Below, piece by piece: positions 421 through 11,781 of a stretch of DNA of 64,000 nt. Source of the stretch: Natrinema salinisoli (GTDB lineage: Archaea; Halobacteriota; Halobacteria; Halobacteriales; Natrialbaceae); assembly GCF_020405205.1 (NCBI RefSeq), contig NZ_CP084469.1, positions 806,001 through 870,000 on the forward strand. Reading direction: 5' to 3'. The notes beneath the pieces are model-generated. The model was not told the DNA's origin, searched no databases, and saw only the letters and a program-made list of their open reading frames with translations. The position numbers and the translations under genes were made by a program. Each line of letters opens with the position of its first letter. Position 1 is the stretch's first letter.

Positions 421-443
421 AGACCGCTCCGCTAAACGAGGGT

Positions 444-1097
444 ATGGCAAATGAAACCGACGTTCGGGACCGAATCATCGACAGTGGCGTTGTGGCAGTC
501 CTTCGCAGCATAGACGAGGCACAGATCGCGTCGGTCGCTCGAGCGATTCACGAGGCGGGCGTCACCGCGATCGAGGTAACTGCCGACGGCAAACGCGCGA
601 GCGACAAGATCGCCGCGGTGGATCGGGAACTGGCGGATACTGATGCCGTCGTCGGTGCTGGAACGGTGCTCGATGCCCCGACGGCGCAGTCCGTTATCGA
701 CGCCGGTGCGGAGTTCGTCCTCGCGCCGGACTGTAACCCCGAGATGATCCGAACCTGTAACCGGCAGGGTGTCGTTTCGGTTCCGGGCGTGATGACGCCG
801 ACGGAGGCCGTTACGGGCATGGAGGCCGGCGCGGATATGCTCAAGATGTTCCCGGCGACGACGGTCGGCCCTGACCACATCGGCGCGCTACAGGGCCCGC
901 TCGGCGATGTCGATATCATGCCGACCGGCGGCATTTCGCCCGAGAACGTCGACGACTTCTTCGAGGCCGGTGCCGTTGCGGTCGGTGCCGGCAGCGCGAT
1001 CGTCGACTACGACGCCATCGAGGCCGACGACATGGGGCAGGTTCGCGAGACTGCCGCCTCGTTCGTCGAGGCCGTCGAATCGGCTCGGTCCCGGTAA
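444..1097 (+). CDS. kdgA: 2-keto-3-deoxy-6-phosphogluconate/galactonate aldolase (class I, Eda type)
   Basis: This cytosolic enzyme should cleave KDPG or KDPGal to pyruvate and glyceraldehyde 3-phosphate, the last step of the semi-phosphorylative Entner-Doudoroff or De Ley-Doudoroff route. The 217-residue length is normal for bacterial-type Eda TIM barrels. Visible motifs are EVT with Glu44, GAGTVLD near 71-77, the Schiff-base lysine Lys134 in LKMFPA, and the phosphate-binding PTGGI at 160-164. The frame is open upstream to 240, but ATG 444 begins a normal N-terminus and has a TATA-like box 28 bases before it. It faces the galactonate dehydratase gene tail to tail, which points to galactonate use. 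Preference between gluconate and galactonate products cannot be read from the sequence. Confidence 0.88.
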   Translation: MANETDVRDRIIDSGVVAVLRSIDEAQIASVARAIHEAGVTAIEVTADGKRASDKIAAVDRELADTDAVVGAGTVLDAPTAQSVIDAGAEFVLAPDCNPEMIRTCNRQGVVSVPGVMTPTEAVTGMEAGADMLKMFPATTVGPDHIGALQGPLGDVDIMPTGGISPENVDDFFEAGAVAVGAGSAIVDYDAIEADDMGQVRETAASFVEAVESARSR

Positions 1098-1403: not shown

Positions 1404-2558
1404 CTACCACTCTGCGACGCTCCCGTCTTCGTTTCGCCACACCGGATTATGCCAGTTGACGGTCTTTTCGGCCTGCTTCTCGACGTAGTCCTCGCTGATA
1501 CTGATCCCCAACCCGGGCTCAGTGGGAACCTCGATGTAGCCGTCGTCGTACTGGAAGACGTCCTGATTCCCGAGGTAATCCAGAATGTCGCTCGATTCGT
1601 TGTAGTGGATGTTCAGACTCTGTTCCTGAATCAGGGCGTTGGGCGAGATCGTATCGACGTGAACGCAGGAGGCCAGCGCGATCGGTCCGAGCGGACAGTG
1701 CGGGGCGAGTGCGACGTCGTACGCCTCCGCCATGGCAGCGATCTTCTTGACCTCGGTGATCCCGCCCGCGTGGGAGAGATCCGGCTGAATCACGTCTACC
1801 GCACCGCTCTCGAAGATCTCTTTGAAGTCCCATCGGGAGTACATCCGCTCGCCCGTCGCGATCGGGATCGTCGTATGCTGGGCGAGGGTGTGGAGTTCGT
1901 CATTGTGATCAGACAGGACCGGTTCCTCGATGAACATCGGATCGTACGGCTCGAGCGCTTTGGCGAGTCGCTTGGCCATCGGTTTGGACACGCGGCCGTG
2001 AAAGTCGACGCCGATGTCGATTTCGGGTCCGACGCGTTCCCGGACCTCTCTGAGCCGATCGACGGCGTTCTCGATCGCCGCCGGATTGTCCACCCGGCGA
2101 AGTTCCGAGGTGGCGTTCATTTTCAGCGCGGTGAACCCGTTCGCGACTTTTTCGGCGGCCGCGTCACCGACCTCCGACGGTCGATCACCGCCGATCCACT
2201 GGTAGACGCGGATTCGGTCCCGAGCACGGCCGCCCAGAAGCTCGTAGACGGGCGCATCGAACTGCTTTCCTTTAATGTCCCAGAGCGCCTGATCGATTCC
2301 GGCGATGGCGCTCATGAGGATCGGCCCGCCGCGGTAGAACCCGCCGCGGTACATCGTTTGCCAGTGGTCCTCGATCCTCGCGGGATCTTTCCGAACCAGG
2401 TAGTTGTCCATGAGCTCCTCGACTGCGGTTCGAACCGTCGCCGCTCGCCCTTCGACGACTGGTTCGCCCCACCCGACGACCCCATCGCTCGTTTCGATGC
2501 GAAGGAACAACCAGCGGGGCGGTACTTCGTACAGGTCGTAATCAACGATCTCGGACAT
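1404..2558 (-). CDS. dgoD: D-galactonate dehydratase, enolase superfamily
   Basis: Converts D-galactonate to 2-keto-3-deoxygalactonate, the entry step of De Ley-Doudoroff galactose breakdown. The 384 residues match the E. coli DgoD length (382), and the catalytic positions line up with an offset of two: metal ligands Asp185 (VDFHG), Glu211 (FIEEPV) and Glu237 (ATGERMYSRWDF), and acid-base histidines His187 and His287 (LAPHCPLGPIALAS). The N-terminal capping domain occupies about residues 1-120 and the barrel the rest. The ATG at 2556-2558 gives a standard N-terminus. Downstream, 3 bases away, lies the wrecked SDR frame. Other acid-sugar dehydratases of this superfamily remain possible, but the His-type motif set favours galactonate. 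Confidence 0.88.
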   Translation of the reverse strand: MSEIVDYDLYEVPPRWLFLRIETSDGVVGWGEPVVEGRAATVRTAVEELMDNYLVRKDPARIEDHWQTMYRGGFYRGGPILMSAIAGIDQALWDIKGKQFDAPVYELLGGRARDRIRVYQWIGGDRPSEVGDAAAEKVANGFTALKMNATSELRRVDNPAAIENAVDRLREVRERVGPEIDIGVDFHGRVSKPMAKRLAKALEPYDPMFIEEPVLSDHNDELHTLAQHTTIPIATGERMYSRWDFKEIFESGAVDVIQPDLSHAGGITEVKKIAAMAEAYDVALAPHCPLGPIALASCVHVDTISPNALIQEQSLNIHYNESSDILDYLGNQDVFQYDDGYIEVPTEPGLGISISEDYVEKQAEKTVNWHNPVWRNEDGSVAEW

Positions 2559-3291
2559 ATATCAGTAGTTGCTCGTGCCGGTTATCGGGAGGGCACTGCA
2601 TCGGATATTCAGTACATTGTCGGGAGCCGATCCCCTAGACGAAATCAGGGACTGCTCACCCAGCTGTGTGACTTGTCTCATGCGTGGGTAAGGATTACCC
2701 CCGGCGATTATAAATATACTCAACATGACTTCTTTTGAAGGATCGGGTTCCTGATTGCTGGAACGTTCACTCTCCGATTTCGTGTCGCACGAGCGAACCC
2801 AGTCCGGGTAATAGTCTGATGTAGAATAATTCACCAAAGTATAAAAATATTGTATTATAACCGAAACAGATACGAGGAACCGAGCGGTGATGCATCATCG
2901 AGTCTCTCGAAACGCGAATGCAGTTTCTTACTAATTGATCGTCTTTTGGAAAACCAAATTCAAGTACGTATCCGCGAATATAGTCATGGACCATCCACAT
3001 ATAACACACTATTACTAAAATAGATTGAAAGAATCGTAGCGCGCGTCCGCTGGACGAGTATCGTCTGTTCTCAGCGGGGATTATCGAGGGTCCTTCCCGT
3101 CTATACCCTCGATTTTCGTTTCTGGGATGATTCGGATCGGGTATATCTCCTATTGACTGTGACGACCCATGGGGCGATCAGCAGGGAAATTCAGCATTCA
3201 TTATATGTCTACCAACGTATGAAAGTGGCAAATACTAGTTGAGAATATATGTTTGAAGCCAGAGATAATTCTCGATCCATCACCATTCAAC
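2559..3291. other. AT-rich divergent intergenic region without a recognised gene
   Basis: About 800 bases separate the divergent dehydratase and lactonase genes. The part from about 2700 to 3290 is clearly more AT-rich than the genes around it and is broken by stops in all frames. A TATA-like TATAAATATA at about 2707-2716 reads on either strand and could drive the dehydratase with a long leader. Short minus-strand frames at 2562-2837 and 2767-3009 have no haloarchaeal codon use or recognisable motif. Confidence 0.5.
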
Positions 3292-3305
3292 ACTATAATC
3301 GTGGA
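3292..3305 (+). promoter_or_regulatory. Upstream element ACTATAATCGTGGA (copy 1)
   Basis: This 14-base sequence occurs identically at 7489-7502 before the GH43 gene. Here it sits 53-66 bases before the lactonase ATG, just upstream of the core promoter, where an archaeal activator would bind. Shared use by a sugar-lactone gene and an arabinanase-like gene makes a common regulator plausible. Confidence 0.5.
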
Positions 3306-3324
3306 ATATAGTACCACAAACTAG

Positions 3325-3336
3325 ACGATTTAAGGG
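3325..3336 (+). promoter_or_regulatory. TATA box of the lactonase gene
   Basis: GATTTAAG at 3327-3334 is centred 27 bases before the ATG at 3358, the canonical archaeal distance to a start site. Transcription is therefore predicted to begin at the start codon and give a leaderless mRNA. Confidence 0.55.
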
Positions 3337-3357
3337 GTATCCCTCAAATCGGGTAGC

Positions 3358-4221
3358 ATGGTTCGTGTCGAACGCGTTGCTGACATCCACGCGCATACTG
3401 GTGAAGGTCCGTTGTGGCACCCCAACGACCAGCAATTGTACTGGGTCGATATTCCGGCCGGCCGACTCTATCGGTACGATCCCGCGACCGACGACCACGA
3501 GATCGCGTACGAAACCGACGGGGCTCCCCTCGGCGGGTACACGATCGAAGCTGACGGCGCGTTGCTCCTGTTCACCCACGGGACCATCAGTCGGTGGGCA
3601 CCCGGAGACGACGACGCCGAGCCCGTCGCTTCGATCGACGCCGACACGCGATTCAACGACGTTATCGCCGGTCCCAACGGACGGGTCTTCTGCGGGACGA
3701 TGCCCGGGGAGGAGACGCTCGGCGATCTCTATCGCCTCGAGCGGGACGGCACGTCGACGGTCGCGATCGAGGACGTCGACATCGCCAACGGGATGGGATT
3801 TTCCGGCGAGACGTTCTACTTCACCGAATCCGAGGCACGCCGGGTTTACGCCTACGATTACGATCGGGCGACAGGCGATCTGTCGAACGAACGGACGGTC
3901 ATCGAGATGCCTGCGGACGGCGCCGTCCCGGACGGGATGACCGTCGACGAGGAGGGCTGCATCTGGTCCGCGCGGTGGAACGGCGGGCGGGTCGTTCGAT
4001 ACTCCCCAGACGGAGAGCAACTCGACGAGATCGAGCTCCCGGCGCGAAAGGTCTCCTCCGTCACGTTCGGCGGCCCGGAGTACAGCGATCTCTACCTGAC
4101 AACCGCCCTCGACGACGGCGATCGGGAGACCGAAGGTGACGGTGCGGGGGCACTCTTCCGGGTCCCGGACGTCGACGTGTCCGGGGTTCCCGAATACCGG
4201 TCGGGAATCGCCCTCGACTGA
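3358..4221 (+). CDS. SMP-30/gluconolactonase family sugar lactonase
   Basis: Predicted cytosolic metal-dependent hydrolase that opens sugar lactones (galactono-, glucono- or arabinono-lactone) to the free acids used by the neighbouring dehydratase. The 287 residues form one six-bladed propeller. The family's metal site is intact: Glu16 in GEGPLWHP, Asn144 in DIANGMGF and Asp192 in VPDGMTV, with RFND at 98-101 as the usual substrate-side motif. There is no signal peptide. It is divergent from the dehydratase across a long AT-rich gap and has its own promoter. The stop codon at 4219-4221 is followed by about 100 bases without a gene. The exact lactone is inference from the neighbours. Confidence 0.82.
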   Translation: MVRVERVADIHAHTGEGPLWHPNDQQLYWVDIPAGRLYRYDPATDDHEIAYETDGAPLGGYTIEADGALLLFTHGTISRWAPGDDDAEPVASIDADTRFNDVIAGPNGRVFCGTMPGEETLGDLYRLERDGTSTVAIEDVDIANGMGFSGETFYFTESEARRVYAYDYDRATGDLSNERTVIEMPADGAVPDGMTVDEEGCIWSARWNGGRVVRYSPDGEQLDEIELPARKVSSVTFGGPEYSDLYLTTALDDGDRETEGDGAGALFRVPDVDVSGVPEYRSGIALD

Positions 4222-4326
4222 TGTCGATCGCGCCCGCTCGCTCGAGATTAGCTCGCACTTGTGACTGCCGTATCCGAGGGAGGCAGGTATCAGTTTCCGA
4301 ACTGAGAGTGGCTGCTGATGTCGTGT

Positions 4327-4875
4327 TCAGCGCCGCGGATAGTCTTCTTCGAGCGACTGGAGGACCAGATCCGAGACGAGGAACAGGGCGAGGGTACAGA
4401 TCGCGAGGAAGGCACCGATGAAGAAGAGCCACGTCCATCCCAGGATGGCGGTGGCGGTGAACAGGAGATACGCGTAGATGGCGGCTATGGGGAGGACGAG
4501 AATCGCAGCAGCTTCCAGCCGCGACGGGACGTAGCGCTCCGGCGGGGTTGCGCCGTCGGCCGTCTCGTGGTAGATCTCCGAGGCGAGTTCCGCGACGGCG
4601 GCGAACCAGTGGTCCTCGATGCGACCCGTCTCGGCGTTGTAGCGGCTGTGATAGCGTTCGAAGTTCCCGTATCGGATTCCGACGACTGCCCCGGCGAGCC
4701 CGATCGCCGGCCCACCGATGAGACACGCCGCTTACGCGCCCGCGGACGGTGACTCGACGAGCAATAACAGTCCGGGTCCACTTCTCGTCGGGATCGCCAG
4801 CGCGAGCACGACGATCCCGGCAAGGAACATCCCCAATCCTACTCCGGTCGCAAGACGTGATCGCTCCCTCGACAT
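4327..4875 (-). pseudogene. Membrane-protein gene interrupted by an in-frame TAA
   Basis: The minus-strand ATG at 4873-4875 (MSRERSRLATG) opens an N-terminal membrane segment rich in Gly, Val and Leu, then stops at TAA 4732-4734 after 47 codons. The same frame runs on without interruption for 134 codons to TGA 4327-4329. It gives another hydrophobic segment, a polar region (about IRYGNFERYHSRY to RYVPSRLEAA) and two strong membrane spans, and ends in LEEDYPRR. Composition stays coherent on both sides of the stop, so the two halves clearly form one 182-codon gene with three to four membrane spans. No start codon with good context follows the stop. The family is unknown to me. A sequencing error is the alternative explanation. 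Confidence 0.7.
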
Positions 4876-4920
4876 ACCTCCCACTCCCGGTATCGTGACA
4901 AATATATTCGGATTTCGGCG

Positions 4921-5178
4921 TTAGTTCGGCTCTAGCTCGCCCGCATCGAGTTCTCCGGCGAGATACTGCTCTCCGAGATCAGTGATCGCGTAGTATCCGT
5001 CGTCGACACGATCGACGAGCCCGTACTCGACTAACTCCGAGAGCCGCCGGCTCACGCCAGTCCTGTCGCGGTCGATGTTTCGTCCGATCGCCGTCGGACC
5101 TAACTCTAACCCGGTATTTAGGACCTCTAGAATCCGCTCGTCTGTTGGATTCTGCATCCAATCACCGGGTTTTCTCAT
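4921..5178 (-). CDS. PhiH1-like winged-helix repressor
   Basis: An 85-residue DNA-binding protein. The opening MRKPGDWM followed by DERILEVL is the hallmark of haloarchaeal proteins related to the phage PhiH1 repressor. The central part (TAIGRNIDRDRTGVSRRL) is the helix-turn-helix and the YYAITDLGEQYL stretch is the wing. The start at 5178 keeps the conserved RKPxDWM motif. Two palindromes directly upstream (5208-5222 and 5234-5243) are candidate autoregulatory operators. It lies 45 bases upstream of the broken membrane gene on the same strand, so it may once have headed that transcript. Its target genes are not evident. Confidence 0.72.
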   Translation of the reverse strand: MRKPGDWMQNPTDERILEVLNTGLELGPTAIGRNIDRDRTGVSRRLSELVEYGLVDRVDDGYYAITDLGEQYLAGELDAGELEPN

Positions 5179-5207
5179 CGTTTATCCGTTTCTGACCGGG
5201 TTCTTAC

Positions 5208-5222
5208 ATCGTTCGGAACGAT
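5208..5222. promoter_or_regulatory. Palindrome ATCGTTC-G-GAACGAT, candidate operator
   Basis: Perfect 7-bp inverted repeats around one central base, 30-44 bases before the start codon of the PhiH1-like repressor. This is where the TATA/BRE element should be, so binding there would block the promoter. A second, 10-bp palindrome ACGATATCGT lies at 5234-5243. Confidence 0.5.
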
Positions 5223-5507
5223 AGTACTGTTAGACGATATCGTAGAAAAAGTTCAACTATATCGCAGAAGAATTTATTGTGGTAGGCCAGTGAGTAAGCG
5301 AAGGGGGCCTCGATGGATTCGATTATTCGGTGAGTCTCTATTGAAGATGCGGTCCGGTGCTTGGAACACCGGATCCCCAAACAGCTCCCGTAACCAGCCT
5401 CCGGAAGCCATGTTCAACGACGATTCGCTGGACCTTGAAAACCCCGCTCGAGCAGATGCATCACCATCGAAACAATATATAACGGACGGCGGTGGGTGTA
5501 CTGAGGG

Positions 5508-5577
5508 TAGCAAAACCTGGATCGGCCTCACCGCCTTCCAGCGCGACTGTCTCGAGGCGACCCGATTCGACCTCCCG
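5508..5577 (+). pseudogene. Remnant of a PadR-like regulator N-terminus
   Basis: The frame through here reads LTAFQRDCLEA, very close to the opening of haloarchaeal PadR-type winged-helix regulators, which typically begin with LTxFQRDLL. Homology then fades within a few residues and the rest of the domain is absent. No start codon lies just before it, although a TATA-like ATATATAA at about 5474-5481 sits at a plausible promoter distance. The fragment abuts the end of the small membrane protein gene on the other strand. The match is short, so chance resemblance cannot be excluded. The rest of 5223-5578 holds no recognisable gene. Confidence 0.35.
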
Positions 5578-5578
5578 A

Positions 5579-5788
5579 TCACTCCTCGGAGCAGAACCCG
5601 CTCCGATGATAGAGGTACCAGAGTGGGACGACGATACCGAGCAGTGGAAGACGTGACGTCAACATCGGGAGCCCCGTTATTTCCGGGTCGGTGTATCCGT
5701 TCCGTCGAATATCGACGTGGAGGAACAGCCAGAGCGAATATTGAACGAAGAAGACGGTGACGACCAGCGACAGGACGATATCCGCCAT
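5579..5788 (-). CDS. Small two-span membrane protein
   Basis: A 69-residue protein starting MADIVLSL. Residues 1-23 form one strongly hydrophobic span, a short polar loop follows (VDIRRNGYTDPEITG), and a second span covers about 43-62 (SRLPLLGIVVPLWYLYH). The tail is short and polar. A TATA-like TGTATTTACG on the minus strand (about 5815-5824) lies about 30 bases before the ATG, predicting a nearly leaderless mRNA. The family is unrecognised. It runs opposite to the PadR-like remnant. The gap 5789-6090 shows no gene apart from this promoter and the one at 6060-6067. Confidence 0.6.
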   Translation of the reverse strand: MADIVLSLVVTVFFVQYSLWLFLHVDIRRNGYTDPEITGLPMLTSRLPLLGIVVPLWYLYHRSGFCSEE

Positions 5789-6059
5789 GTGGCCGAAATA
5801 TACACGCTCTTAGTACGTAAATACAGTAGGTCTGTTCGCTACTCTTTTGGGAGTGCGTCCCTCTTACGTGAGCCGGTCGCATGTGCCGACTCCGCGGAGC
5901 CGTCGTCAATTTCCTGGTCGGCGGCTACTCGCTCGAATCAGTATCCCGGGAACCGTCTCACCGCTCGAAAGACGAACAGGTGTTCGATTCGGGACCGGTA
6001 TCGGCTCGTCGCGGTACTCCGGGGCAATTCGGTATCACTACACGTCACTCGGATGAAAC

Positions 6060-6067
6060 TTTAAATT
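6060..6067 (+). promoter_or_regulatory. TATA box TTTAAATT
   Basis: Centred 27 bases before the ATG at 6091, this box predicts an mRNA starting exactly on the small ORF 6091-6198 rather than on the larger gene at 6191. Confidence 0.5.
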
Positions 6068-6090
6068 CACCTCAATTGATACGTACCTGT

Positions 6091-6198
6091 ATGACACGGC
6101 CGGCGCAGAGCGACCCTCGTTGTCCTGCCGACGATCCCGACGAATCGAACCAGTACCGCCGACCGAACTCCCTTGGACAACACACGACCAATGTCTGA
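6091..6198 (+). CDS. Short leaderless ORF overlapping the next gene
   Basis: A 35-codon ORF (MTRPAQSDP...HTTNV) starting 27 bases after a TATA box. Its TGA stop at 6196-6198 overlaps the ATG at 6191 of the methyltransferase-like gene by 8 bases in another frame. The arrangement resembles translational coupling, in which a ribosome ending the short ORF could restart at 6191. The peptide has no recognisable motif, and it may simply be a translated leader. Confidence 0.35.
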   Translation: MTRPAQSDPRCPADDPDESNQYRRPNSLGQHTTNV

Positions 6199-7369
6199 AC
6201 AGTCCGCCCCCCAGACGACGTACCAGCGACGCCTCGACGACAGAGTGACGACCCTCGCAACGGCTCCCGACGCGACCGTCGCGGACGTGATTCGGAACGC
6301 CCGCGGCGCGTTCCCGACCCTCGTCTACGACCGGTTACTGGAACGGGGCGTCGCCGACGCGCTTCCGATCGGCAGCCTCGAGTCGGATGGCGAAACGGAC
6401 GCCGTCCACACGCCGGAACTTCACCCCCTCGACTACGAGTGGTATTTCACCGCGGAGACGACGACTGCCGTCGCCGACACCCTTCTCGAGGGTGGCGAAC
6501 CGATCCTCTGTCTCGGTGCGCCGACGGTCGCCGTCCACCTCGCTCGGCGGGGGGTCCCCGTGACGCTCGTCGATCGGAGCGGCCGGGTCGAAAAGCGATT
6601 CGCGACCGACCTGGAGTCGCTCCGATTCGTTCGGGGCGACGTCCACGAACCGCTGGACTTCGAGTCGACGTTTTCGGTCGCGTTCTTCGATCCGCCGTGG
6701 TATCCCGAACACACGGAAGCGTGGCTCTACCGGGCCTGCCAGCACGTTCGCCCCGGCGGGCGGGTTCAGTTCGTGTTGTTTCCGCCGCTCGTCCGTCCGT
6801 CGGCGGCCGAGCAGCGTCGCGACCTGCTCGAGACGGCCCGTCGGGTCGGAACGGTGTCGGTCGACGAGGATGCGGTCGCGTACCGCACGCCGGCGTTCGA
6901 ACGGCGCGTGCTCCGGGACAGCGACGTCCCGGTGGTTTCGGCGTGGCGTCGCGCCGACCTCGCGAGAGTCGACGTAGCCGACGCGAGCGCGCTGTCGGAG
7001 CCGCCGACCGTCGGGAGCGACGGGGACTGGCAGACGTTCGTCGCGGAAGGACAGGTGGTGAAGCTCCGACGGGACGTGACCGGCGGTCCGGAGGCTGTGC
7101 TCGCGCCGATCGAGGGCTGCGAGGGATACGTCCTGCCGAGCGTCAGTCGGCGGGACGCTCGGCGGCAGAACGTCGACCTCTGGACCTCGCGCAACCGCGT
7201 CGCGAGGGTTGGGAATCGAGCGGCCGTCGCGGAGGGACTTCGAATGCTCGAAACCGGCGCGACCCTGTCGGAGCTCTCGGAGACCGAATTCGTCACCGGG
7301 CTGTCCACCGAACGGAGGCAGCACCTCGTGGCGCAGTTGGACGCGATTCTGGAGTCGCAGTCGGACTGA
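6191..7369 (+). CDS. DPPW-motif SAM methyltransferase-like protein
   Basis: A 392-residue cytosolic protein. Residues 1-90 look like a helical N-terminal domain. Residues 100-200 have the order of a Rossmann methyltransferase: a glycine-loop-like strand ILCLGAPTVAVHL (motif I, but without the usual GxGxG), an acidic strand end VTLVDRS, and DPPWYPE at 167-173, the motif IV found in amino-methylating enzymes. Residues 280-392 form a further acidic domain with no motif I recognise. Start 6191 was preferred over the upstream TTG at 6173. Substrate unknown: DNA, RNA or a small amine would all fit the DPPW motif. The degraded motif I makes an altered cofactor site possible. Confidence 0.55.
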   Translation: MSEQSAPQTTYQRRLDDRVTTLATAPDATVADVIRNARGAFPTLVYDRLLERGVADALPIGSLESDGETDAVHTPELHPLDYEWYFTAETTTAVADTLLEGGEPILCLGAPTVAVHLARRGVPVTLVDRSGRVEKRFATDLESLRFVRGDVHEPLDFESTFSVAFFDPPWYPEHTEAWLYRACQHVRPGGRVQFVLFPPLVRPSAAEQRRDLLETARRVGTVSVDEDAVAYRTPAFERRVLRDSDVPVVSAWRRADLARVDVADASALSEPPTVGSDGDWQTFVAEGQVVKLRRDVTGGPEAVLAPIEGCEGYVLPSVSRRDARRQNVDLWTSRNRVARVGNRAAVAEGLRMLETGATLSELSETEFVTGLSTERRQHLVAQLDAILESQSD

Positions 7370-7488
7370 CGGTCATCTCCGAACTGTTGGCGTTCCATAT
7401 GTCGACTGTCTGTTCCGAGTGAGACCCACCGATCCCGCGGTACCACCTGCGAACCGAACCGTCACCGCAGGGATCGGCACCATCTAAA

Positions 7489-7502
7489 ACTATAATCGTG
7501 GA
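7489..7502 (+). promoter_or_regulatory. Upstream element ACTATAATCGTGGA (copy 2)
   Basis: Identical over 14 bases to 3292-3305. Here it adjoins the TATA-like TAAATATTA (7503-7511), so a factor bound here would touch the GH43 core promoter directly. Confidence 0.5.
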
Positions 7503-7532
7503 TAAATATTATACTACATTTGGAAAAATTAT

Positions 7533-8858
7533 ATGGGGATGCGGCGCTGGGTGGAGTACGATACGATGCGCGATACTCGAACGAACGTAGACAGACGGGA
7601 TGTGTTACGGTTGGTCGGCGCTGGTACGGTAGCCACCGCGAGTCCAATCGGCGTCAGCGAGACGGGACGCGCGGCCGAGCAGGAGGACAGCTACCGGAAT
7701 CCGACGGGACCGATCGGGTTCGGCGACGTGAGCGTCGTCCGGACCTGCGACGGCACCTACTACGCGTACGGAACGGAAACGCCCGAGGACGTGGTCCCGA
7801 TCGCCAGATCGACGGATCTCGTGAACTGGACCTACGTCGGGTCGGCACTCGAGCGGCACCCGGACTGGCGGGACGATCCCGACGCGGGGGTGTGGGCACC
7901 GTCGGTCGCCGAGTACGACGGTGAGTACCACTTGTACTACTCCTACTCGACCTGGGGGAGCCAGGACAATCCCGGGATCGGGCTCGCGACCGCGTCGGAT
8001 CCCGAGGGACCGTTCACCGATCGGGGGTCGGTGTTCCGCGCTGCGGACCTCGGGATGACGAACGCCATCGACGGCGAGCTGGTGGTCGTCGACGACACGC
8101 CGTATATGGTCTGGGGAAGCTGGTACGGCATCTACGGCGTCGAGTTGACCCCCGACGCCGCGGACTACGTTCCCGGGACGGCGTTCCACATGGCCGGTGA
8201 CAAGAAGGAAGGGCCGATGATACTCGAGGAGAACGGGTATTACTACCTATTCTATTCGACGGGACACTGCTGTGACGGTGCCGACAGCACGTACGAGGTC
8301 GCAGTCGGCCGTTCGGAGTCGTTTTTCGGCCCCTACGAGAACCAGCGCGGGGAGGATCTCCGCGAGTTGAACGCCCATCACGAAGGCGTCGCCGTGCTTT
8401 CGGGAACCGAGGAGTTCGTCGGGCCGGGCCACAACACGGCGATCCAGGACGACGAAGGCGACTGGTGGATGGTGTACCACGTCGAAGCCACCGCGGACCG
8501 AGAAGTGCGCGCGCTCATGGTCGATCCGATTCGGTGGGACGACGACGGGTGGCCGATCGTTGGCGACGATGGAACGCCGAGCGCCGAGTGGTCGGTTCCC
8601 CCGGCAGGCGCGGACCGGTGTGGCGATACCGGCGACGGCGACACTGTTGCAGTCGGCGACTACGAGGCCCGCGACCTTGACGACGACGGTCGCTACGAGG
8701 ACGTCACCGGCGACGGGACGACCACCCACGCGGACGTCAACGCCTTCTTCGAACACCTCGAGTCCGACGGCGTCCGGAAGAACCCCGAGAAATTCGACTT
8801 CGACGGCAACGGCCGCGTCGGGTTCGCGGACGTCCTCGAACTGCTCCGAGAGATCTGA
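7533..8858 (+). CDS. Exported GH43 arabinanase-like hydrolase with C-terminal dockerin-like module
   Basis: Predicted to hydrolyse alpha-1,5-arabinan or a related arabinose-containing polysaccharide outside the cell. A twin-arginine signal (DRRDVLRLVGAG) covers about residues 20-47. The five-bladed GH43 domain spans about 55-360. Its catalytic set is visible: base Asp65 (FGDVSV), pKa-modulating Asp180 (NAIDGELV), acid Glu226 (KKEGPM), and the GPGHN loop with His300 as in endo-arabinanases. Residues 372-441 form a dockerin-like pair of Asp-rich loops (DLDDDGRYED and DFDGNGRVGFADV). ATG 7533 fits a TATA box 26 bases upstream; ATG 7566 gives a more usual signal-peptide length and is the alternative. 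It precedes another dockerin-bearing polysaccharide enzyme and shares an upstream element with the lactonase gene. Confidence 0.8.
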   Translation: MGMRRWVEYDTMRDTRTNVDRRDVLRLVGAGTVATASPIGVSETGRAAEQEDSYRNPTGPIGFGDVSVVRTCDGTYYAYGTETPEDVVPIARSTDLVNWTYVGSALERHPDWRDDPDAGVWAPSVAEYDGEYHLYYSYSTWGSQDNPGIGLATASDPEGPFTDRGSVFRAADLGMTNAIDGELVVVDDTPYMVWGSWYGIYGVELTPDAADYVPGTAFHMAGDKKEGPMILEENGYYYLFYSTGHCCDGADSTYEVAVGRSESFFGPYENQRGEDLRELNAHHEGVAVLSGTEEFVGPGHNTAIQDDEGDWWMVYHVEATADREVRALMVDPIRWDDDGWPIVGDDGTPSAEWSVPPAGADRCGDTGDGDTVAVGDYEARDLDDDGRYEDVTGDGTTTHADVNAFFEHLESDGVRKNPEKFDFDGNGRVGFADVLELLREI

Positions 8859-9108: not shown

Positions 9109-11781
9109 ATGACAGATCACGATAGGCGGACGTTCCTACGATTGGTCGGCGCGAGCGGGGTCGGTATAGCGGCGACGGGGCCCGGCTCGGCCGCGGCGTC
9201 GAGTGACGGATCGGTCACGGCCGGCGGTGCGGACATCTGGAACCGGACCGACGAGTTCCACTACCTCTTTACCGACGTCAGCGGCGATTTCGACGTTACG
9301 GTACGGGTAGACAGTCTCGAAGAAACGGATCCGTACGCAAAGGCGGGACTCATGCTTCGCGAGTCACTGGCGGCCGACGCTGCGAACGTGATGGTCCGCA
9401 GGGCTCCGGACCACACCACCGTTCAGTGGCGGCCGGAAACGGGTAGCGAGGCTGGCAGTCTCACGTCCGACCTGGGCGAAGATTTGAGCGAGGTCTCGGG
9501 TGGCACGATGGAGGGCCGGTACCAACGACTCGTCCGCCGTGGCGACACCGTCACGGCGTACGGCTCATCCGACGGGACCGACTGGACCCGAATGGTCCAG
9601 CTTTCGGAAGCGGACCACGACCTGCCCGAAACGGGCTACATCGGACTAGCCGTCACGAGTCACAGTACGGGCACGCCGTGTACGGCGGCATTCTCCGAAC
9701 TGAGCGGCACGACGCCGACCCACAGTCGGGACGTCGGCGACGTCGACGTTGACGGAAGCGCCAGTTGGAACGGCGCCTCGATCAACGACGGGCCGCTCGC
9801 AGCGACGGGACCGGCGTCGGCGCTGACGGAATCCTCGATGACTCTGAGCGGGTCGCTCGATCACCTCGGCACCGACGCCTCGATCCAGGTGGCTTTCGAG
9901 TACCGCGAGCGCGGCGCCTCGTCCTGGTCTCGGACGGACGCGGAAACGATCTCCTCGCGTGGCGAGTTCAGTCGGGACGTCTCCGATCTGTCCACGAATA
10001 CCGAGTACGAGTACCGCGCAGTGGCGGTCGACGGTGACGGCGACCGGGTCGTGGGATCGACGGCGACGGTCACGACGCTCCGTCGCGATACCGATCCGTC
10101 GATCAGTACCGGCCCGGCGACTGAGCAGAGCGCCTCGACGGCGACCCTCTCCGGGACCCTCGAGTCGATCGGCGGCCAGGCCAGTTCCGCGCTGGTTTCG
10201 TTCGAGTATCGGGAAGTCGACGGCGACGAGTGGCAATCCTCGGGAAGCCTGACGCGCTCGGAACCGGGCGAGTTCGAGCAGACCGTCTACGGACTCTCGC
10301 CCGCGACGGACTACGAGTTCCGCGCGACGGTCGAAGCCGACGACGGCGATACCGACATCGGTTCCACGGTAACGGTCCGAACCGACTCGGGCGTCGACAC
10401 CGACGCCGGGTCGTACTTCGATCCCGAGGACGGGTTCGCGGACGTTGACTGGTTCGACGACGAGGTCCAGGTCATCAGGATACAGGAACTGGATCTGGAC
10501 GTTATCCAGGAAGCGTTCCAGACTGAGGGACCGCGCCTGATCGTCTTCGAAGCGAGCGGCGTCCTCGACATGGATAGTGCGCAACTCGAGATCACGGAGC
10601 CTAACTGCTGGGTCGCCGGGCAGACGGCGCCGTCGCCGGGCGTCACCTTCATCGACGGGTTCGTTCAGGTCGACGCCGACGACGTCGTGGTCGAGCACAT
10701 CCGCGTCCTGCGTGGGGACCAGAGCGGAGGCGAAGGGACGGACCCGATGAACAGCGCCGATGGGACGGCGAACGTGATTTTCAGTCACTGCACATCCTTC
10801 TGGGGTCGCGACGAGAACCTCTCGGTCGGGTACGATTCCGACCGGACCACCTTCGCGAACTGTCTGATCGCGGAGGGGCTCGAGGATCCCGAGGAGAACT
10901 CCAACGGGACGCTGGTCGGTAACGGCGCGAAGAACGTCGCGATCATGGGGACCGTTTACGCGAAGAACAACGACCGAAACCCGCGTCTGAAAGCCGACAC
11001 GGAAACCGTCGTGGTCAACGGACTCAACTTTTACCACGACAAGGCCATCTGGATCGATGGTGGTGCCGAGGCGGCCGTCGTCGGCAACGCCTACATCCAC
11101 CGCTTCAGCTTCAGAGACCCGCTCGTCTTCGGTGACGGGAGCGTCTATTTCGAGGACAACTACGTCGCGGATCCGCCCCTGAACGGGCGGCCGTTCCAGA
11201 ACGTCGGGACCGAACTGGAGTCGCCGCCGCTGTGGCCGGACGGACTCGAGGCGATGCCCGCTGGCGACGTCGAGAGCCATAATCTCACCTTCGCCGGCGC
11301 GCGGCCGGCCGATCGGATCGGACAGGAGGAGAAGGTCGTCCGGCAGATCCGCGACCGGTGGGGCGACCTGGACGTGGATCCGAATCGAGACAATGCCGGA
11401 TTCTCGGACATTCCCGACAGTGCGGCGGAAGCGGGTGGGTACCCTGACCACGGAGGCACCACGCACACCCTGGAGGTTCCCGAATCCGGACTGCGCGAGT
11501 GGCTCCGCCGGAAGGCCGTAGAAGTAGAGGTCGGCGACGAAAACGACGGTGACGCCGGCCCCGATACGATCTTTGTCGGCGACTACGAGGCACGGGATCC
11601 GGATGATGACGGCCGCTACGAGGACGTCAACGGAGACGAGACGACCACCCACGGCGACGTCAATGCCCTCTTCGAGAACCGGGACGCCGATGGCGTTCAG
11701 AACAATCCAGACCCCTTCGACTTCGACGAAAACGGCCGATTCGGCTTCTCGGACATCCCCGAACTGCTTCGAGAGATCTGA
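9109..11781 (+). CDS. Exported multidomain pectate-lyase-like protein with dockerin-like module
   Basis: An 890-residue exported protein that probably cleaves pectin. A twin-arginine signal (DRRTFLRLVGAS) is followed by a concanavalin-like/DUF1349-type domain (about 36-200). Two fibronectin-III-like repeats follow (about 230-325 and 340-430), each with the YEYRA or YEFRA strand. A PL1-type right-handed beta-helix then occupies about 445-770. There, TFIDGFVQVDADDVVVEHI and VIFSHCTSFWGRDENLS are typical of pectate lyases, as is the NDRNPRLKAD arginine region. Residues 815-890 form a dockerin-like module about 70 percent identical to that of the GH43 neighbour. No cohesin is seen in the window. 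Pectate versus another uronan as substrate is inference. Confidence 0.78.
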   Translation: MTDHDRRTFLRLVGASGVGIAATGPGSAAASSDGSVTAGGADIWNRTDEFHYLFTDVSGDFDVTVRVDSLEETDPYAKAGLMLRESLAADAANVMVRRAPDHTTVQWRPETGSEAGSLTSDLGEDLSEVSGGTMEGRYQRLVRRGDTVTAYGSSDGTDWTRMVQLSEADHDLPETGYIGLAVTSHSTGTPCTAAFSELSGTTPTHSRDVGDVDVDGSASWNGASINDGPLAATGPASALTESSMTLSGSLDHLGTDASIQVAFEYRERGASSWSRTDAETISSRGEFSRDVSDLSTNTEYEYRAVAVDGDGDRVVGSTATVTTLRRDTDPSISTGPATEQSASTATLSGTLESIGGQASSALVSFEYREVDGDEWQSSGSLTRSEPGEFEQTVYGLSPATDYEFRATVEADDGDTDIGSTVTVRTDSGVDTDAGSYFDPEDGFADVDWFDDEVQVIRIQELDLDVIQEAFQTEGPRLIVFEASGVLDMDSAQLEITEPNCWVAGQTAPSPGVTFIDGFVQVDADDVVVEHIRVLRGDQSGGEGTDPMNSADGTANVIFSHCTSFWGRDENLSVGYDSDRTTFANCLIAEGLEDPEENSNGTLVGNGAKNVAIMGTVYAKNNDRNPRLKADTETVVVNGLNFYHDKAIWIDGGAEAAVVGNAYIHRFSFRDPLVFGDGSVYFEDNYVADPPLNGRPFQNVGTELESPPLWPDGLEAMPAGDVESHNLTFAGARPADRIGQEEKVVRQIRDRWGDLDVDPNRDNAGFSDIPDSAAEAGGYPDHGGTTHTLEVPESGLREWLRRKAVEVEVGDENDGDAGPDTIFVGDYEARDPDDDGRYEDVNGDETTTHGDVNALFENRDADGVQNNPDPFDFDENGRFGFSDIPELLREI

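Follow-up and report, generated by a model that had tools for sequence, protein, structure and literature searches.

A 25-bp block common to a lactonase promoter and an arabinanase-like promoter of Natrinema salinisoli: a possible local regulatory site

Introduction

Two promoters of a carbohydrate cluster in the haloarchaeon Natrinema salinisoli, one in front of a lactonase gene and the other in front of a gene for a secreted endo-arabinanase-like enzyme, have a block of 25 bp in common, at 3281-3305 and 7478-7502 (both on the plus strand) of the window, by which is meant the whole 64-kb stretch of DNA that was analysed (C1:806001-870000). This block is tentatively regarded as a local, lineage-specific cis-regulatory site of the two promoters and, from its position, as an activator site, a reading to which we give somewhat less than an even chance. 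The shared stretch is a modest, unproven lead, which may be the landing site for one local regulator. If it is real, it would offer a concrete and cheaply tested regulatory site tying the extracellular attack on pectin and arabinan to sugar-acid catabolism in a haloarchaeon. To our knowledge, few sugar-responsive operators have been characterised in haloarchaea, and a search of titles and abstracts in the literature gave no account of this site.

The carbohydrate cluster

The cluster begins with a KDPG/KDPGal-type aldolase (438-1097, plus strand, PF01081), which is followed by a galactonate dehydratase (1404-2558, minus strand; NF010624, 671.5 bits against a cut-off of 311) and, divergently from it, an SMP-30/gluconolactonase-type lactonase (3358-4221, plus strand; PF08450, E 3.1e-70). 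The secreted GH43 endo-arabinanase-like enzyme (7566-8858, plus strand; PF04616, E 1.3e-59), whose best solved relative is the endo-arabinanase 6b7k, has a twin-arginine leader, judged by eye, and a dockerin-like tail (PF00404, E 1.2e-4, just under the cut-off). The mechanical start at 7533 was passed over for one at 7566, which coincides with the beginning of the twin-arginine leader and gives a reading that is conserved in the sister species Natrinema salsiterrestre. Next comes a pectate-lyase-like secreted enzyme (9109-11781, plus strand), which is without the site; it matches the PelZ family NF041900 with 172 bits, under the cut-off of 840, and the structure 9buj with E 5.4e-10. The initial annotation had placed a carbohydrate gene behind each copy of a repeated 14-mer, and these assignments, a lactonase of the SMP-30 type beside a galactonate dehydratase and an endo-arabinanase-like enzyme of family GH43, bear it out.

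A dockerin-like tail ends both of the secreted enzymes and recurs on many proteins of Natrinema and of the family, for example on several encoded at C1:2968956-2978741 of the same genome.

The 14-mer and the longer shared block

The 14-mer ACTATAATCGTGGA occurs exactly at 3292-3305 and 7489-7502, on the plus strand in both cases and 4.2 kb apart, just where the initial annotation had put it. These are the only two exact copies in the genome of 4,704,203 bases (three contigs), and a further 12 places, among them 2971-2984 of the cluster (minus strand), match with one or two mismatches. The likeness is longer than the 14-mer: 3281-3305 and 7478-7502 are identical at 22 of 25 positions (CACCATnnAAnACTATAATCGTGGA), and when the 120-bp stretches in front of the two starts are aligned locally, CACCATTCAACACTATAATCGTGG and, after a 3-nt gap, AATATAGTACCACA pair with CACCATCTAAAACTATAATCGTGGATAAATATTATACTACA, 32 of the 38 aligned bases being identical, with a score of 21.

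Downstream of the 14-mer, after gaps of 22 nt at the lactonase gene and 25 nt at the arabinanase gene, TATA-like boxes are found, namely ATTTAAGG at 3328-3335, within a lactonase core promoter at 3303-3357, and ATTATATG at 7528-7535 (all on the plus strand). The distance from their first base to the start codon is 30 nt at the lactonase gene (start codon at 3358) and 38 nt at the arabinanase gene (7566); both TATA assignments were made from sequence and conservation and not from mapped transcription starts. The earlier description of the 14-mer as lying just upstream of a TATA box is thus a fair one. As a rule, archaeal activator sites sit upstream of the BRE and TATA elements, neither over nor after them, and both copies of the element are placed in this manner.

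At the lactonase gene the 14-mer is covered by an imperfect inverted repeat, ACTATAATC-GTG-GAATATAGT (3292-3312, plus strand), with 16 of its 21 positions self-complementary, and nowhere else does the genome come within three mismatches of its consensus; at the arabinanase copy the dyad is poor, with 10 of 21 such positions. A perfect dyad was also tried as the operator and was rejected, as it matched the genome at three mismatches or fewer in one place, and so did the reversed control.

A DNA-binding protein at the 25-bp block, 22-25 bp upstream of the TATA-like box, could aid the binding of TBP and TFB without blocking it, and because of this position we infer an activator site; an activator bound at both blocks would induce arabinan breakdown jointly with lactone/galactonate catabolism. 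Protein binding, activation and an inducer are all read here from the DNA sequence and are to be taken as presumptive. The similar spacing to the TATA-like boxes at both genes, the inverted repeat at the lactonase copy and the candidate for a third half-site (P 0.015, described below), which lies in the intergenic region of that copy, count in favour of a shared site, as do the carbohydrate roles of both genes and the fact that the two blocks match each other better (22/25) than the lactonase block matches its orthologue (17/25). The proposal of the initial annotation that the 14-mer is the site of a sugar-responsive activator is upheld as regards the unusual likeness of the promoters, the carbohydrate genes behind them and a position suited to an activator, but not as regards enrichment in a regulon or conservation at homologous genes.

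Chance likeness of two promoters

The strongest rival explanation is that two AT-rich promoters are alike by accident, and that the likeness came to notice through a search of the window for repeats; we regard this as doubtful, though it has to be taken seriously. It is favoured by the abundance of exact 14-mer repeats, of which the window has 222 independent pairs where first-order Markov sequence gives 85.6 (sd 9.5), and by the upstream regions themselves. When 52 such regions, each the 150 bp in front of a called gene, were compared, one pair had a 14-mer in common in the same orientation, and the probability of finding at least one such pair was 0.17 (300 resamplings). When both orientations are counted, five pairs have a common 14-mer, at least two of the other four being divergent neighbours that use the same DNA. 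Because of the 222 pairs and the P of 0.17, the argument that recurrence of a 14-mer within 64 kb is unlikely by chance is wrong as it was worded in the initial annotation. The exact repeat alone is weak evidence in a window of 64 kb, and the full alignment and the sister genome are more informative. The accident is also favoured by the sister species, in which the site is not conserved, and by the lack of a regulon.

Against an accident stands the length of the likeness, which spans 25-38 bp. The lactonase/arabinanase pair ranks first among 2203 promoter pairs in 82 kb, its score of 21 being followed by a runner-up of 17, and 40,000 dinucleotide-preserving shuffles gave a maximum score of 17, from which a P of 2.9e-6 per pair, or about 0.006 over the 2203 pairs, was extrapolated. 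An empirical yardstick was obtained by adding 400 kb more of the genome; 317 of 415 upstream regions were kept (at least 60 bp free upstream), giving 50,029 real promoter pairs. A score of 21 or more was reached by seven of them, the lactonase/arabinanase pair included. The other six, with gene identities read from translations, comprise two pairs of tandem paralogues (L137), one of TBP-like paralogues, one within a single gene cluster (L131) and two that are unexplained, so that few unrelated pairs reach the same score. At this rate about 0.3 such pairs are expected among the 2203 when every pair is counted, and about 0.001 among the ten pairs of the five cluster promoters. The likeness of the two promoters is uncommon though not unheard of and, because it stands at the top of the 2203 pairs and only 7 of 50,029 reach its score, the longer likeness is probably more than an accident.

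The sister species and homologous loci

N. salsiterrestre (G027) has the same cluster order and both genes, without the pectate lyase and without the segment corresponding to 4222-6000. Between the two species 52 of 55 bases are identical over the lactonase core promoter (3303-3357), against 227 of 386 (59%) over 2906-3291, and the arabinanase TATA-like box is likewise kept in the alignment. The 14-mer retains 10 of its 14 bases at the lactonase gene and 9 of 14 at the arabinanase gene (gapped alignment), while positions 7495-7506, which straddle the end of the arabinanase 14-mer, keep 11 of 12. Furthermore, the two promoters of N. salsiterrestre have no likeness to each other (score 9, P 0.42). 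Because of this low retention and the unlikeness of the sister promoters, the 14-mer as such is under no evident constraint between the two species, and the best-kept parts of the promoters adjoin it. That the sister keeps the genes and the core promoters but not the sites counts against a shared site.

Other homologous loci were also without it. In other genomes, with the sister included in each set, 11 lactonase loci were without any match to the 14-mer at three mismatches or fewer, and 18 GH43 loci were without any such match at the promoter; in two of the latter (L081 and L082) a match with three mismatches lies at a distance of over 1 kb from where the GH43 match region begins. Hence the conservation at orthologous promoters that is expected of a shared operator was found neither in the sister nor in these two sets of loci, and the check in related genomes that the initial annotation had proposed gave no support there. 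A conserved block, GAATATAGTACCACAAACTAG, was tried as a wider motif and was rejected, since its one match in 37 genomes, to which G027 does not belong, was that of the host itself.

A second explanation, that gene conversion or template switching recently carried a copy of a short promoter fragment between the two genes, across about 4 kb, with function or without any, is unlikely. It agrees with the orientation of the blocks, which lie on the same strand 4.2 kb apart, and with their likeness to each other (22/25), which exceeds that of the lactonase block to its orthologous stretch in N. salsiterrestre (17/25), as recent copying would give. On the other hand, the 3-nt gap and the rapid decay of the likeness on both sides leave little trace of a copied tract. 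The downstream likeness AATATnnTACnACA is also present in the sister's lactonase promoter and not in its arabinanase promoter, so copying would require that the arabinanase promoter received the fragment.

If the shared block is a regulatory site, it could be a newly arisen or fast-turning-over operator confined to one Natrinema lineage, which would wire a secreted arabinanase to an intracellular lactone/galactonate pathway through a regulator. In this specific form the proposal is improbable; were it true, the site would have evolved more rapidly than the surrounding core promoters.

That the 14-mer, which contains TATAAT, is itself the TATA box is highly improbable: three Natrinema genomes have a one-mismatch match, ATTATAATCGTGGA, some 30 bp in front of a called start codon, placed as a TATA box would be, but TATAAT is lost at both sister sites (ACTGTCATC; ACTATC), and what the sister keeps is ATTTAAGG and ATTATATG, whose distance from the starts is suitable.

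As a separate observation, the non-coding stretch 2559-2905, before the galactonate dehydratase, is identical at 298 of 347 positions in N. salsiterrestre, well above the adjoining 2906-3291. One-base gaps in the sister alignment suggest that it is not coding, and it is possibly a long leader or promoter region.

Candidate regulators

PMC11519228 presents IclR-type activators, namely XacR, GacR, RhcR and MscR, as the known kind of regulator for haloarchaeal sugar catabolism, with GacR serving galactose; XacR is also treated in passages of PMC10448506, which give no binding sequence. The cluster resembles the GacR system in that a galactose pathway is suggested here by the galactonate dehydratase. 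However, for a regulon of the XacR/GacR kind an IclR gene is expected beside the regulated genes, and the window has none: a PF01614 search of the whole host genome gave eight IclR genes, none of them in C1:806001-870000, and the nearest on the same contig is about 0.4 Mb away.

Between the two promoters a winged-helix protein of 78 aa is encoded (4921-5157, minus strand), whose matches fall under the Pfam cut-offs and which resembles small haloarchaeal winged-helix regulators (HVO_A0261-like, IclR-HTH-like). Its gene lies in the segment that is absent from the N. salsiterrestre locus, and Natrinema genomes without a lactonase match, among them G020, G008 and G017, encode relatives with 84-89% identity. 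Because of these relatives, the gene travels independently of the cluster, and the protein was rejected as a dedicated regulator. The segment itself (4222-6000), lacking from an otherwise syntenic sister locus, contains this small gene and apparent remnants of a membrane protein, as judged by eye, and is a candidate insertion or deletion.

Search for further sites

In the host genome 14 places match the 14-mer with two mismatches or fewer (five for the reversed control), three of them in the cluster. Eight of the 11 places outside are deep within called genes; of the others, one is at the 3' end of a called frame (L004), one extends across the beginning of a called gene (L007) and one is internal to a frame of 306 aa (L011). 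Since every one of the 11 falls within a reading frame or on its edge, a regulon defined by the 14-mer was rejected, and the enrichment before polysaccharide and sugar-acid genes for which the initial annotation had proposed to scan the genome was not found. Within the cluster, nothing better than five mismatches was present near the starts of the aldolase, the pectate lyase and the dehydratase (near upstream region). Recurrence before several genes of the pathway, which a shared operator would lead one to expect, is therefore limited to two promoters, apart from a distant half-site with two mismatches. This possible third half-site, ACTATATTCGCGGA (2971-2984, minus strand), lies between the dehydratase and lactonase genes, 413 bp before the dehydratase start, and is not kept in the sister species. 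Its presence has a P of 0.015 in shuffles of 2559-3291, and its alignment with the lactonase promoter added no significance (P 0.21).

Across 61 genomes the 14-mer was found with at most one mismatch in 20 places, four of them the host's own, against eight for the reversed control. The gene caller put nine of the 16 others in coding and seven in intergenic DNA, and three of the seven are one orthologous TATA region; no evident sugar gene follows any of the seven, as judged from first residues only. The longer pattern gave, at three mismatches or fewer, the two known places in the host genome and no third, with one place for the reversed control. In 125 genomes of the family, the extended pattern gave the two host sites and a single other site, orthologous in two genera, in front of genes which were named methylaspartate-mutase-like by eye. 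The latter was not linked to the host sites, being a single independent match whose outer end is not conserved.

At that orthologous site (near 1501 in L107 and L109) an identical non-coding element of 25 bp lies between divergent methylaspartate mutase-like and CoA transferase-like genes in the two genera, and variants within three mismatches of its inner 22 bp are present in 12 of 61 genomes. In addition, at L131 (C1:1600001-1620000), a cluster that looks like an integrated element, GGGAACCCnnTATTTACGAGC stands before called genes at 7038, 13379, 13459 and 16977 (0 to 4 mismatches), and this motif is arguably a better case of a shared promoter element than the lactonase/arabinanase pair.
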